Translations under genes and position numbers: made by a program | Source: Massilia sp. METH4 | GTDB lineage: Bacteria > Pseudomonadota > Gammaproteobacteria > Burkholderiales > Burkholderiaceae_D | Assembly: GCF_037094685.1 (NCBI RefSeq) | Contig: NZ_CP146614.1 | Span: forward strand, 3,596,001 to 3,660,000 | Direction of reading: 5' to 3' | DNA: 64,000 bases | Shown here: in pieces, positions 19,476 through 26,039 of the stretch | Layout of the letters: every line of letters begins with the position of its first letter | Numbering within the stretch: position 1 is the stretch's first letter | The notes under the pieces: generated by a model | What the model saw: the letters and a program-made list of their open reading frames with translations, nothing else | Told to the model about the DNA's origin: nothing | The model's database searches: none

Positions 19476-20252
19476 ATGACCATGCCTTCGTACCGATTGC
19501 CGCCGCTGTTGCCGCACCTGCTGCTTCTTCTGCCGCTGGCCGCCACGGCCCAGGTCACCATCGAATCGCCGAAAGGCGGCTGGCGCAACTCCGCCGGCGC
19601 CCGCGAACAATACACGCAGGGCGTCAACTATCCCGCCAACCGGGTGAACCTGCAGCCGGGCCAGAGCGAGACGGCGCAGATTCGCGGCCGCATCGCCGGC
19701 GCGCACAAGGGCAAGCCCGCCACGCTCGTCGTCAACGGCGTGGCGATGCCGCTGGAAGTGCAGGAGGATGGTACGTTCGGCCGCCCGTACGGCTTCGGTA
19801 GCGGCGCCAACAGCGTGGAAGTGCGTGCCCCCGACGGCACCGCGCGGGCGCGCAGCCAGTTCGTCGACGCCTACGCGGGCAAGACGCAGGCGCGCCTGCG
19901 CGTGGTGCTGTCGTGGGACAGCCCGGGCACCGACATCGACCTGCACGTGGTGACGCCGGATGGCGGCCACGCCTGGTACGGCAGCCGCGTGCTCAGGGAT
20001 GGTGGGGCGCTGGACGTGGACGTGACGACCGGCTACGGCCCGGAAATCTTTTCCAGCGCGACACCGCCGAAAGGCAACTACCACGTCTACGTCAATTACT
20101 ACGGCAGCGGCGAGGAGCGCCAGGCGCTGACGGTGGCGCAGGTGGCCATCATCACGAACGAGAACACGCCGCGCGAGAAGCAGCAGGTGTTCCGCGTGCC
20201 GCTGCGCGCGCCGGGCGAGCTGACGCTGGTGAAGTCGTTCGTGTTTCCCTGA
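19476..20252 (+). CDS. DUF2135 protein B, paralogue of the preceding gene
   Basis: A 258-residue secreted protein, starting three bases after its neighbour. It has a signal peptide (LLLLLPLAATAQ), a GSGANSVEVRAPDG segment, the DUF2135 core DIDLHVVTPDGGHAW, and the terminal GELTLVKSFVF. These match the upstream protein segment for segment, which indicates a tandem duplication with divergence. It ends the A2M operon, eight bases from the convergent rtcR stop, with no terminator visible between them. Confidence 0.85.
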   Translation: MTMPSYRLPPLLPHLLLLLPLAATAQVTIESPKGGWRNSAGAREQYTQGVNYPANRVNLQPGQSETAQIRGRIAGAHKGKPATLVVNGVAMPLEVQEDGTFGRPYGFGSGANSVEVRAPDGTARARSQFVDAYAGKTQARLRVVLSWDSPGTDIDLHVVTPDGGHAWYGSRVLRDGGALDVDVTTGYGPEIFSSATPPKGNYHVYVNYYGSGEERQALTVAQVAIITNENTPREKQQVFRVPLRAPGELTLVKSFVFP

Positions 20253-20260
20253 CGGCGCGC

Positions 20261-21853
20261 CTACACCTGCACGGCTTCCCAATCGAGCGCGAAGCGCGCC
20301 AGGTATTTTTTCAGCCGGTCGGCGTCGTTCGGCTTGGCCTTCGCCTCGCGCGATACGCCATACAGCTTGCGGCCCGCGTCGGACAGGGTGCGTGACTGCC
20401 GGCAGACGCCGATCACCGCACGCAGCTGCAGCGCATCGAACAGGTCGAGCTGCGCCGCCGCGTCCTCGCCCAGCACCATCCCCAGGTCGACATCGCCGGC
20501 CGGCGCTAGGCCGGCGTGGCGCCACAGCGCCTTCAGCCGCACGATCTCGTTCGTCACAGTGGCGATGGTGATCACGCCCGACTCGGCCAGGGTGGCCATG
20601 CGCGTGACGGAAGCCACGAGGTCGCGGAAGTTGCCCGTCCATGGCGCGGCGGCCGACGTGGCGAAGCGCAGGTAGTGCTCCCTGGCTTCCTTGTTGAAGC
20701 GCACCTGCTGGCCGTTCTCGCGCCCGTGCTCGGCCAGCAGGTAGGCAAGGTTGGGTTCGATATCCTCGATGCGTTCGGCCAGGCCGGGCAGTTCGTAGGT
20801 CCACAGGTTGATGCGCGCATACAGGTCTTCGCGGAACCGGCCTGCCCGCACTTCCAGCCCCAGGTCGCGGTTTGTGCCGGCGATCAGCTGGAACTCGCTG
20901 CGCACCTCGGTATCGCTGCCCACCGGCAGGAAGCGCTTTTCCTCGATCGCCTTCAGCAGCATCGCCTGTTCGTCCAACCCCAGCTCGCCGATTTCATCCA
21001 GGAACAGCAGGCCCTTGTGCGCCGCGCGCAGCAAGCCGGGCCGGTCGGACGTCGCGCCGGTGAACGAGCCGCGCACATGGCCGAACAGCGTGGACGAGGC
21101 GCCATCGCCGCGCAGCGTGGCACAGTTGATGTCGACGAACTTGCCGTCCAGCTGGTGGCGCGTCTTCTTCAATTCGTAGATGCGCCGGGCCAGGAAGGAC
21201 TTGCCGCCGCCGGTGGGCCCCATCAGCAACATCGGCGCGCGCGAGCGGACGGCGACCCGTTCCACTTCCTCGATCAGCGCATTGAAACGGGCGTTGCGGG
21301 TAGCGATGCCGGACTTCAGGAACGCCACGCCTTCTTCCTGCTCGCGCGAAAAGCGCTGGGCGATCTGGTCATAGCGCGACAGGTCCAGGTCGATCAGCGT
21401 GTACTGGCCGGGCCCGTTGCCCTGCGGCCGGGGCGGGGAAGTCTGCACGAGCCGGCCGGGGAAGAAGCGCGCCTCCGTCATCAGGAACAGGCAGATCTGC
21501 GCCACGTGGCTGCCGGTGGTGATATGGATCCAGTAATCCTCCCGGTCCGGATCGAAGGGGTAGCGCTTGGCGAAGTCGAACAACGCCGCATACACCCGCT
21601 CGAAGTCCCATATATCGTCGATCGGCAACAGGTGCGGCACCACGGCCGTCTCCGGCGACACTGCGGCGATGTCCGCCGCGACCTCCTTGACCAGGCGACC
21701 CGCATTGTCCGTGTGAAGAAGATCGAGCCGGTCGACGATGAAATCCTCGTGCTGCGTCAGCGCCACCGTTGGCCGCCAGCGCTCCCAGCGCGTGGCACCG
21801 CGTGCATTGTCGAGCTGCGTGCCGACGAAACCGATGATGACCGTCTTTTTCAT
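20261..21853 (-). CDS. rtcR: RtcR, sigma-54 activator of the RNA-repair operon
   Basis: A 530-residue enhancer-binding protein. The N-terminal region (MKKTVIIGFVGTQLDNARGA through about 185) is the RtcR-specific CARF-type sensor domain, thought to bind RNA ends or cyclic phosphates. The AAA+ domain has Walker A GPTGGGKS and the sigma-54 contact loop GSFTGA, a GAFTGA variant. A short C-terminal DNA-binding region follows. It is transcribed away from a perfect sigma-54 promoter that drives the rsr-remnant/rtcB/rtcA genes, as in other bacteria. The gene looks intact. Confidence 0.95.
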   Translation of the reverse strand: MKKTVIIGFVGTQLDNARGATRWERWRPTVALTQHEDFIVDRLDLLHTDNAGRLVKEVAADIAAVSPETAVVPHLLPIDDIWDFERVYAALFDFAKRYPFDPDREDYWIHITTGSHVAQICLFLMTEARFFPGRLVQTSPPRPQGNGPGQYTLIDLDLSRYDQIAQRFSREQEEGVAFLKSGIATRNARFNALIEEVERVAVRSRAPMLLMGPTGGGKSFLARRIYELKKTRHQLDGKFVDINCATLRGDGASSTLFGHVRGSFTGATSDRPGLLRAAHKGLLFLDEIGELGLDEQAMLLKAIEEKRFLPVGSDTEVRSEFQLIAGTNRDLGLEVRAGRFREDLYARINLWTYELPGLAERIEDIEPNLAYLLAEHGRENGQQVRFNKEAREHYLRFATSAAAPWTGNFRDLVASVTRMATLAESGVITIATVTNEIVRLKALWRHAGLAPAGDVDLGMVLGEDAAAQLDLFDALQLRAVIGVCRQSRTLSDAGRKLYGVSREAKAKPNDADRLKKYLARFALDWEAVQV

Positions 21854-21865
21854 GCGTATAAAGGC

Positions 21866-21881
21866 TTATCCAAAAAGATAA
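21866..21881. promoter_or_regulatory. possible RtcR upstream activator site
   Basis: TTATC-N6-GATAA is a small inverted repeat about 90 bp upstream of the -24/-12 promoter, a plausible distance for an enhancer site. It is a single copy and not compared with known RtcR sites. Confidence 0.3.
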
Positions 21882-21967
21882 TTCTACACGACAGTCGCGC
21901 AGGGGTATTCTGTACGCAAAAAGTTAAATGTCAATGAAATCAAATGGTTGAGAAAAAGGCCATGCCC

Positions 21968-21983
21968 TGGCACGGCTGTTGCA
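21968..21983 (+). promoter_or_regulatory. sigma-54 (-24/-12) promoter
   Basis: TGGCACGGCTGTTGCA matches the RpoN consensus TGGCACG-N4-TTGCW at every specified base. It lies 37 bp before the start of the rsr remnant, facing away from rtcR. Confidence 0.92.
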
Positions 21984-22020
21984 ATACATGGGATGTCAAA
22001 CAAAAAAAATGGAACGCACC

Positions 22021-22506
22021 ATGAACCCGCAACTGTTCGAAACCATCAAGGGCATCTTCCTGCCTCCGGCGAATGCGGCCAATGCCGAGAATGCGCCCGC
22101 CTACGTGCTGTCGCCCCGCCACCAGCTGGCCCAGTACGCGGCGACCGGCTGCCTGAACACGACGTTCTACGCGAACGCCGAAGACCAGCTGGCGGCCGTG
22201 CTGGCGCTGTGTGCGGATATCGACGACGACTACATCGCCAAGGTGGCGCTGTATGCCCGCGAAGCGGGATTCATGAAGGATATGCCGGCCCTGCTGGTCG
22301 CCGTGCTGGCGGCGCGGCGCGCGCCGCAACTGGAAGCGGTATTCCAGCGCGTGATCGGCAACGGCAAGATGCTGCGCAACTTCGTGCAGGTCGTGCGCTC
22401 CGGTGTCGTGGGCCGCAAGTCCCTCGGCACGCGCCCGAAGAAGCTGGTGCAGGCATAGTTGAACGGCGCATCGGATGCGGCGCTGCTGTCCGCGGCCGTC
22501 GGCTCG
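22021..22506 (+). pseudogene. rsr: TROVE-domain (Ro60/Rsr) gene remnant
   Basis: The first 145 codons encode the N-terminus of a Ro60/Rsr-like RNA-binding ring protein. PQLFETIKGIFLPPAN, the Ala-rich repeats and NFVQVVRSGVVGRKSLG are recognisable, and the family is usually over 500 residues. At 22456-22458 a TAG stops the frame exactly where the family has a Trp (VQAW). The same frame then continues as LNGASDAALLSAAVG to about 22503, after which homology ends and rtcB begins 54 bp later. This suggests a nonsense mutation plus deletion of most of the gene. A Y-RNA gene, often found between rsr and rtcB, is not visible. Confidence 0.82.
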
Positions 22507-22557
22507 AAACAGTGTTTCGCCCCTCTCGTCATCGTTTTTTTTACAAGAGAGAACAAT

Positions 22558-24835
<2,278 letters not shown>

Positions 24836-24964
24836 GCGGGAGCCGGCAACGAGGTAAGGCATGTCCTACATGCCTGCACAGGCTGCGCCGATACAGCCAT
24901 GGGAGGCGCAAGCGCATGATCGCCCTGTTGACGCCCGGCGGCGTCGTCACAGGAGGAGCTCATC

Positions 24965-25456
24965 ATGTCGAAGAAAGGCAGCTCGGACGACAAGCGCGTC
25001 CGTTCACAAACCACGAAGGACCAGAACACGGTGGCCGAGGGCAGCCTGCAGGGCGTGGCCCCCGGCGCGGTGCAGAAGGGCGGTGCGAACGTGCAGTCCG
25101 CATCGGAAGAGCAGCAGGGCGGCTCCCTGCGCGACCGCAGCTCGCTGCAGGGCTCAGTGGATGAGAACGTCGGCAGCAGCCGGGGCGGCGAAGGCGCCCA
25201 GCAGGCAGGGTGGAGCGCACGCCAGAAGGCAATACGCGAAGAGGCCCGCGCCGACGAGGACCGCGACGCGGCCCCCCGCCAGTCCGGCTATGGCGGCCTG
25301 GAACAGAAGCAGCATGCCGGTTCGCAGGAGTCGCCGACCGGGCCGTCGGGCAACCGGCAGTCCGGCGCGGCGAACAACCAGCAGCGCCAGGGCAACCCCG
25401 GCGAGGCGCCGTCCGACGCCGGCAGCCAGCGCACGGACAAGATCCAGCAGCGCTGA
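24965..25456 (+). CDS. small hydrophilic disordered protein
   Basis: A 163-residue protein with a strong ribosome site (AGGAGGAG just before ATG). It is rich in Gln, Gly, Ser, Glu, Arg and Asn, with no hydrophobic core, Cys, Trp-rich or membrane segment. Motifs such as SLQGVAPGAVQKGG and GGSLRDRSSLQGS recur loosely. The composition resembles stress or desiccation-related hydrophilins, but I recognise no family. It is about 130 bp downstream of the rtcA remnant and convergent with the PEBP gene, whose stop follows immediately. Confidence 0.6.
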   Translation: MSKKGSSDDKRVRSQTTKDQNTVAEGSLQGVAPGAVQKGGANVQSASEEQQGGSLRDRSSLQGSVDENVGSSRGGEGAQQAGWSARQKAIREEARADEDRDAAPRQSGYGGLEQKQHAGSQESPTGPSGNRQSGAANNQQRQGNPGEAPSDAGSQRTDKIQQR

Positions 25457-25933
25457 TCAGGCGCGAGGGTTGCGCTGGTACATGCCCATCAGCTGGGCTT
25501 GTGCCAGCACGTGGCCCTGCATGGCCCGTTCCAGCTCGGCCTTGGTCGGAGTGCCAAGGCCGGGCAGCGTCGCGTCCAGCGCATACAGCTTGAAGAAGTA
25601 GCGGTGGCGGCCGATGGGCGGGCAGGGCCCGCCATATGCGGCATTGCCCCAGTCGTTCTTGCCGGACACGGTGCCGGCGGGAAGTTGCCGGCTGGAGCCT
25701 CCCGCCAGCCGCCCCGCATCCGGCGGCAGGTTGTACAGCACCCAGTGCACCCAGGTACGCTGCGGAGCGGCCGGGTCGGGCGCGTCGGGATCGTCGACGA
25801 CCAGCGCCAGGCTCTTCGTGCCGGCCGGCAGCTCGGACCAGGCCAGCGGCGGCGGCGAGTCGGCCCCGTCGCAGGTATGGATGGGCGGGATGTCGCCGCC
25901 GTCCACGAAAATCGATGACAGGGTCATGGCCAT
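25457..25933 (-). CDS. YbhB/YbcL-type PEBP family protein
   Basis: A 158-residue protein of the phosphatidylethanolamine-binding/Raf-kinase-inhibitor-like family (bacterial YbhB type). The conserved ligand-site motifs are present: DIPPIHTCDGAD, LVVDDPDAP, THVHW-like TWVHWVLYNLP and GGPCPPIGRHRYFFKLYALD. The physiological ligand in bacteria is unknown. ATG at 25933 has GGAGG four bases upstream; ATG at 25927 is the alternative. No signal peptide is seen, so it is probably cytoplasmic. Confidence 0.9.
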   Translation of the reverse strand: MAMTLSSIFVDGGDIPPIHTCDGADSPPPLAWSELPAGTKSLALVVDDPDAPDPAAPQRTWVHWVLYNLPPDAGRLAGGSSRQLPAGTVSGKNDWGNAAYGGPCPPIGRHRYFFKLYALDATLPGLGTPTKAELERAMQGHVLAQAQLMGMYQRNPRA

Positions 25934-26039
25934 GGCGCCTCCGTCGGTGTGCACGACACGCTGCAAGCGTACACCGGTGTGCGGACGGCTGCCGCGCGCC
26001 TGGGGCGTTACAATCCGATTTCAACAATAAAGGACGCCC

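Follow-up and report, generated by a model that had tools for sequence, protein, structure and literature searches.

An RtcR-controlled RNA-repair operon of Massilia that appears to have lost its Ro60/Y RNA module, and a small open reading frame over the Y RNAs of its relatives

The rtc locus of Massilia sp. METH4 is, with a probability of roughly 90%, an RNA-repair operon of the rsr-yrlBA-rtcBA type from which the Ro60/Y RNA module has disappeared. It was analyzed in a window of 64,000 nt (GCF_037094685.1, NZ_CP146614.1, positions 3,596,001 to 3,660,000, forward strand) from a genome of one contig (6.88 Mb), and the positions below are those of this window. A deletion of ~1.3 kb would have joined codon ~161 of rsr to the last ~20 nt of yrlA, so that both Y RNAs and roughly two thirds of Rsr went missing, with an amber mutation sitting 15 codons before the junction. 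RtcR-driven output would still be possible and would comprise a 145-aa Rsr stub from which no function is expected, an intact RtcB, and a truncated RtcA. The lesions are present, and the genome holds no other rsr and no detectable Y RNA; we infer that no Ro60 activity remains. The case is ordinary in kind, a young pseudogene and a deletion in a known operon type.

The divergent rtcR gene (20261 to 21853, minus strand), encoding the sigma-54 activator, is open over 530 codons, and its product matches Pfam RtcR (E value of 1.1e-81) and Sigma54_activat. A promoter-like site of the sigma-54 -24/-12 type, TGGCACGGCTGTTGCA (21968 to 21983, plus strand), was found by a motif search as the one match in the whole window, where 0.24 are expected, and a like motif is present in 28 of 28 rtcR loci. 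A candidate RtcR upstream site, TTATCCAAAAAGATAA (21866 to 21881, plus strand), is suggested by likeness by eye, and TTATC..GATAA-like stretches are seen, also by eye, at the same place in the gaps of relatives. The rtcB gene (22558 to 23793, plus strand; Pfam RtcB, E value of 2.1e-128) is intact, with its own start and ribosome-binding site, and is in frame with the rsr remnant. The rtcA gene (23790 to 24835, plus strand) is frameshifted near 23977 to 23995, and its RTC domain is split across two frames, compared with one frame in 27 of 27 other loci; in L044 and L055, the one stop within the rtcA span is the protein's end. A frame model of the 64 kb gave six frame changes, five of which are ordinary stop/start overlaps by eye, and the rtcA frameshift is the only mid-gene break that it found in the window. 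As to operon membership, rtcR, the sigma-54 promoter, and an intact rtcB are present, and Y RNA genes and an intact rtcA are absent. The preliminary description had the sigma-54 promoter and RtcR as retained, which agrees with these results, and called the rtcR/rtcB locus otherwise intact, which is correct for rtcR and rtcB but passes over rtcA; at this locus, only rtcR and rtcB are intact.

The N-terminal remnant of rsr (Ro60) (22021 to 22455, plus strand; 145 codons) is recognized by its homology to Rsr. Its 145-aa product is 67 to 70% identical to the Rsr N-terminus in 5 of the 73 other genomes of the genus (E values of 4e-58 to 3e-61), and the stub has matches in 57 of 392 family genomes, its own included (E ≤ 1e-10). 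The open frame extends over at least 412 codons in 55 of these 57, the exceptions being its own genome and G250. The amber TAG (22456 to 22458, plus strand) occupies an alignment column in which every one of the 31 aligned relatives has Trp; these are the matched relatives whose loci were extracted (about half of the ~57, with G250 outside the 31). Past the TAG, rsr sequence continues in frame from 22459 to 22503 (plus strand; LNGASDAALLSAAVG), as recognized by homology to Rsr. The full-length Rsr of G289 matches 22024 to 22530 (residues 3 to 171 of 515, with one TAG), and the same query found no second rsr elsewhere in the 6.88-Mb genome at E ≤ 0.01. N-terminal homology is thus found, and a full-length Ro60/Rsr (~515 aa) with its C-terminal part is not. 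The preliminary description had proposed a TROVE/Ro60 N-terminus open for 145 codons, a TAG in place of Trp at 22456, and an in-frame continuation to ~22503, and the homology, the Trp column, and the G289 alignment together with the comparison with relatives bear out all three; the full-length Rsr search of locus and genome that it suggested gave the match reported above and nothing else. Close relatives whose functional protein ends at the same point would have spoken against it; of the 57 matches, only those in this genome and in the frameshifted G250 end near that position.

Among 69 columns invariant in the 31 relatives, the window departs at five. It lacks a residue in the first column, has substitutions in two columns ahead of the stop, and departs at the stop itself and at one position after it; as a control, each relative left out in turn departs at 0 to 3. 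No other indel is present in the stub, and where it differs from G164, the changes are distributed 42/30/69 over the three codon positions, mostly the third; this weighs against the preferred reading and suggests that the stub is very young or still under selection. Its end branch is the longest of 32 rows, and the RtcR of its own genome likewise has the longest branch in the RtcR tree, so that faster evolution or decay of the stub, looked for in the trees, was not seen beyond the genome's long RtcR branch. Pfam TROVE did not match the 145-aa fragment; it also missed three of the five full-length genus relatives and placed none of the five above the cut-off, and the missing match is therefore not counter-evidence. 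Neither the fragment nor the tail had a meaningful match in Pfam or NCBIfam. A search of solved structures (PDB) gave no match with the fragment and, with a full-length relative, five Rsr/Ro60/TROVE chains, including 2nvo (Rsr). A weak match in G050 (L009/L065, G050:C13:137205-137429; 36% identity over part of the stub, in a 442-codon frame away from the rtc locus) was rejected as rsr and is another protein, perhaps a distant TROVE protein. At 22456 to 22461, a TTG in the rtcB frame comes right after the TAG and could conceivably act as a restart codon. In G250 (L142), rsr is frameshifted at the same Trp codon, and its second part starts at a stop-overlapping TTG, so that two genomes carry lesions at one codon.

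At the deletion junction (22504 to 22514), 1,244 to 1,349 bp are absent compared with G164, G289, G282, G401, and G128, a size that is consistent over the five. In these rsr-carrying neighbors in the RtcR tree, the gap between rsr and rtcB ends in a YrlA-like RNA, the 3' strand of which reads TTTCACC, three or four bases, and CTTGTCATC. The pattern TTTCACCNNNCTTGTCATC, the spacing of which was picked after local alignments had been viewed, is exact for three of the five (the other two have one extra base) and matches the window once with ≤2 mismatches, at 22515 to 22533 (plus strand), where 0.02 matches are expected and 1 of 100 shuffles gave any match. When the tail was aligned locally to 15 relatives with 500 shuffles each, the shuffles scoring as high numbered 0 for G128, 2 for G282, 6 for G401, 17 for G264, 26 for G288, and at least 58 for the other ten, including 63 for G164 and 197 for G289; the same scar in G010 was not significant (best, 69 of 500). 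The assignment of 22515 to 22533 as a scar of the 3' end of the YrlA RNA gene is well supported by this resemblance, which points to a deletion of ~1.24 to 1.35 kb that would have removed YrlB, most of YrlA, and the part of rsr that begins at codon ~161. The earlier statement that no homology remains over the last 54 bp before rtcB therefore needs correction. These 54 bp were also considered as the 3' end of a small open reading frame (ORF) found in relatives (see below); this was rejected, and the YrlA scar is preferred, because the RtcR tree sets the window near ORF-less loci, whose YrlA 3' ends fit.

Three other explanations of the locus were weighed. The lesions are read from the assembled sequence, and a sequencing or assembly error could make the TAG and the rtcA frameshift false and the locus less damaged than it appears; this is improbable, since base-calling errors do not produce a deletion that leaves a colinear YrlA-like scar immediately upstream of rtcB, and rtcA has the sole in-gene frame change among the six flagged in 64 kb. 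It is slightly less probable still that the 145 codons specify a short protein with a function or serve as a leader that couples translation into rtcB. The clean frame and the immediate succession of TAG and TTG would suit such a role, but only its own genome and the frameshifted G250 end near there among the 57 family matches, 22 rsr-less loci in the genus manage without a stub, and rtcB retains its own start. Amber read-through into an Rsr(N)-RtcB fusion of about 590 residues is highly improbable, since the single frame of 613 codons with one TAG, which follows from the 537 bp between the rsr and rtcB starts, would arise by chance in about one of three joinings, and rtcB has its own start. 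Under the preferred reading of module loss, the TAG would block the Rsr-RtcB fusion that an in-frame deletion created, and because the deletion set rsr in frame with rtcB, it is possible that the TAG is later than the deletion and compensating.

The rsr-rtcB gap of relatives contains two kinds of Y RNA. Rfam found no Y RNA at gathering scores in the window or in six relatives' loci, and none at E ≤ 5 in window positions 20000 to 26000, and therefore two models were built, R1 for the short form (15 sequences) and R2 for the YrlA form (13 sequences). R1 has 19 pairs, 11 of which show change on both sides with pairing kept, and R2 has 24, with 5 such pairs. In the five rsr-carrying loci of the genus, R1 scored 63.6 to 83.8 bits (G037 has a second match, at 29.4) and R2 scored 99.9 to 112.4 bits; most of these loci were used in building the models, except G072 for R1 (74.8) and G035 for R2 (99.9). 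R1 searched over the 74 genus genomes with stricter filters (E ≤ 0.1) matched nine, the METH4 genome not among them: these five, G032 with a four-copy array (26.9 to 51.0 bits), and, weakly, G002, G025, and G044 (19.8 to 24.2 bits). The genome searched alone gave no R1 or R2 match at E ≤ 1 (150 candidates scored of 2,501 for R1 and of 7,324 for R2); the positive control is the genus-wide run for R1 and the loci only for R2, an empty result being weak without a control. The window gave no match to either model at E ≤ 5. The proposed loss of Ro60 and of a detectable Y RNA is thus supported by the searches, including the Rfam search round the locus that the preliminary description recommended. 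Elsewhere, G032 has four Y RNAs beside a C-terminal rsr relic (L140, G032:C1:3404693-3404976) in a genome without an rtcR match, and L141 (G269) has no rsr match at the locus, strong Y RNAs (52.9 and 87.6 bits), and an rtcB whose matches fall in two frames, as would be seen if decay had begun in this operon as well.

An rtcR match was found in 28 of the 74 genus genomes, its own included (E ≤ 1e-100), and an rtcB match in 40. Five of the 28 rtcR loci have rsr and Y RNAs, one is the window, and 22 have rtcR beside rtcB without an rsr remnant (18 with no rsr match and 4 with matches at E values of 0.27 to 0.74). Since 22 of 28 loci lack any trace of rsr, its loss appears to be ordinary in the genus, and the window is not a special case in kind. 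L044 (G035), counted among the five, carries a frameshift in rsr near residue 454 and retains its Y RNAs; other damaged copies are those of G250 (split by a frameshift) and G032 (the C-terminal relic). On the 54-row RtcR tree, G010, which has no rsr, forms a pair with the window (99/96), and both lie inside a 14-row set, 12 of which have rsr and Y RNAs (98/93). The tree requires six changes of rsr state, and starred branches force five of them; loss and gain of rsr are indistinguishable on this tree, which is that of a gene. The placement of the window with G010 among rsr-carrying loci and the second lesion, in rtcA, in the same operon both support the loss of the module.

The genome carries another rtcBA pair at about 1.43 Mb, in which rtcB (410 codons) and rtcA (347 codons) are both open and the upstream ~760 nt contain no sigma-54 motif. 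The 16-kb stretch that includes this copy (L066, G000:C1:1424000-1440000) has no match to rtcR or rsr. Studies on Salmonella and Escherichia coli state that RtcA is required for RtcR activation in some conditions (PMC7790460, PMC9650030), and RtcR induction here may for that reason depend on the second copy. This copy presumably supplies RtcA, and because it is present and open, the cell is probably not reduced to RtcB. The earlier phrase "reduced to RtcB" therefore fits the locus, where rtcA is frameshifted too, but probably not the cell.

The rtc operon of E. coli is not known to carry rsr or a Y RNA, and the rtcR-rtcBA locus is like the window in that RtcR is present and the operon is without a Y RNA. 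According to the E. coli study, RtcR controls rtcB, and rtcA is kept, whereas the rtcA of the window operon is broken and a second rtcBA copy lies elsewhere (PMC9650030). In the Salmonella study, the order is rsr, two Y RNAs, rtcB, and rtcA under RtcR control, an order that several relatives of the window share; compared with it, the window has a truncated rsr, no Y RNAs save the scar, and a frameshifted rtcA (PMC7790460). The same study names YrlA as a bacterial Y RNA with a tRNA-like domain and states that, among bacteria, Deinococcus alone had been used to study Ro60 and Y RNAs (PMC7790460). The YrlA-type RNA of the relatives shares with YrlA the Y stem, with covariation, and a T-arm-like hairpin (seen by eye and outside the modeled structure of R2), but differs from known YrlA in overlapping a conserved small ORF in Collimonas, Duganella, Massilia, and other records and in having no Rfam match in the loci searched. 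The roles of bacterial Ro60 and Y RNAs are largely open, and since some members of this genus have the whole module at one RtcR-controlled locus, some have half of it, and some have none, the genus would permit a comparison of RNA repair in its presence and absence.

The relatives hint at a small protein encoded over the Y RNAs and able to outlive them, which is the more interesting of the two results; the window serves as a marked intermediate and as a route into this observation. We consider it fairly likely that Y RNA genes in Oxalobacteraceae are dual, carrying structured RNAs and a conserved small protein in one frame, and that where rsr is lost, the fold weakens or vanishes and the protein stays before rtcB with an rtcB-linked role of its own; the window would represent the other outcome, the loss of the whole module. 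If this is true, a yrl deletion may remove a protein as well as the RNAs. Against the dual reading, the g6 loci keep the RNA with the frame broken, 18 of 31 rsr-carrying loci have no ORF by the pattern used, and RNA constraint alone reduces change in rsr-carrying loci. Among the matches listed in a search of the open-licence literature, none reported a small ORF over Y RNAs or rsr loss in these bacteria.

The small ORF, preceded by a ribosome-binding site, lies between rsr and rtcB in 13 of the 31 rsr-carrying loci examined (L004 to L008, L067, L069 to L072, L079, L082, and L086), where it crosses the Y RNAs in one frame and starts with ATG, GTG, or TTG at one place. It also lies between the promoter and rtcB in 12 of the 22 rsr-less genus loci (among them L042, L045, L048, L053, L056 to L060, L062, and L063), with only 29 codons in G030; a similar frame runs on towards rtcB in G003 and G014, which are outside the 12 yet counted in the tree labels. 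The product has ~65 to 82 aa with the pattern M(S/G)W...QA..VW..VL..LVG and belongs to no Pfam family (six tried) or NCBIfam family (five tried, with one chance-level match); an AlphaFold model had low confidence (mean pLDDT of 49) and was left unused. A total of 175 proteins match it (E ≤ 0.01), and the named ones among the best 120 of the 175 are "hypothetical proteins" of Collimonas, Undibacterium, Noviherbaspirillum, Massilia, Duganella, Pseudoduganella, and the like. It is found in 37 of 392 family genomes (E ≤ 0.001), four of these matches having internal stops and two being partial and weak. Sixteen named records were found via the C-terminal pattern, 14 of them with rsr, and in 13 of the 16 the final ~33 codons of the ORF match coincide with a YrlA match (95.6 to 113.4 bits) whose register hardly varies. 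This does not apply to Undibacterium seohonense, with a YrlA-like match after the ORF, or to the two rsr-less Massilia.

Where rsr is missing and the RNA fold has become weaker or can no longer be detected, the small ORF persists and shows signs of selection on the protein. Across six rsr-less genomes, the 15 pairs all have dN/dS values of 0.06 to 0.43, with differences of 79/54/179 by codon position; these six genomes gave no R1 match, and the R2 scan, which covered four of the six loci, gave no match. A second set of 15 comparisons, of which five repeat earlier pairs and nine include one or two rsr-carrying members, gave 0.17 to 0.69 and, for G402/G409, 0.90. Three very close rsr-carrying pairs gave 0.69 to 1.20, and a shifted-frame control on five rsr-less pairs gave 0.66 to 2.93. 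In alignments that were both fitted to the model, eight rsr-less loci with a YrlA trace scored 13.6 to 37.0 bits with 78.1% of pair cells standard, compared with 78 to 104 bits and 94.4% in six loci with a Y RNA (five with rsr), which suggests that the YrlA fold of rsr-less loci is weakened, yet above slid controls.
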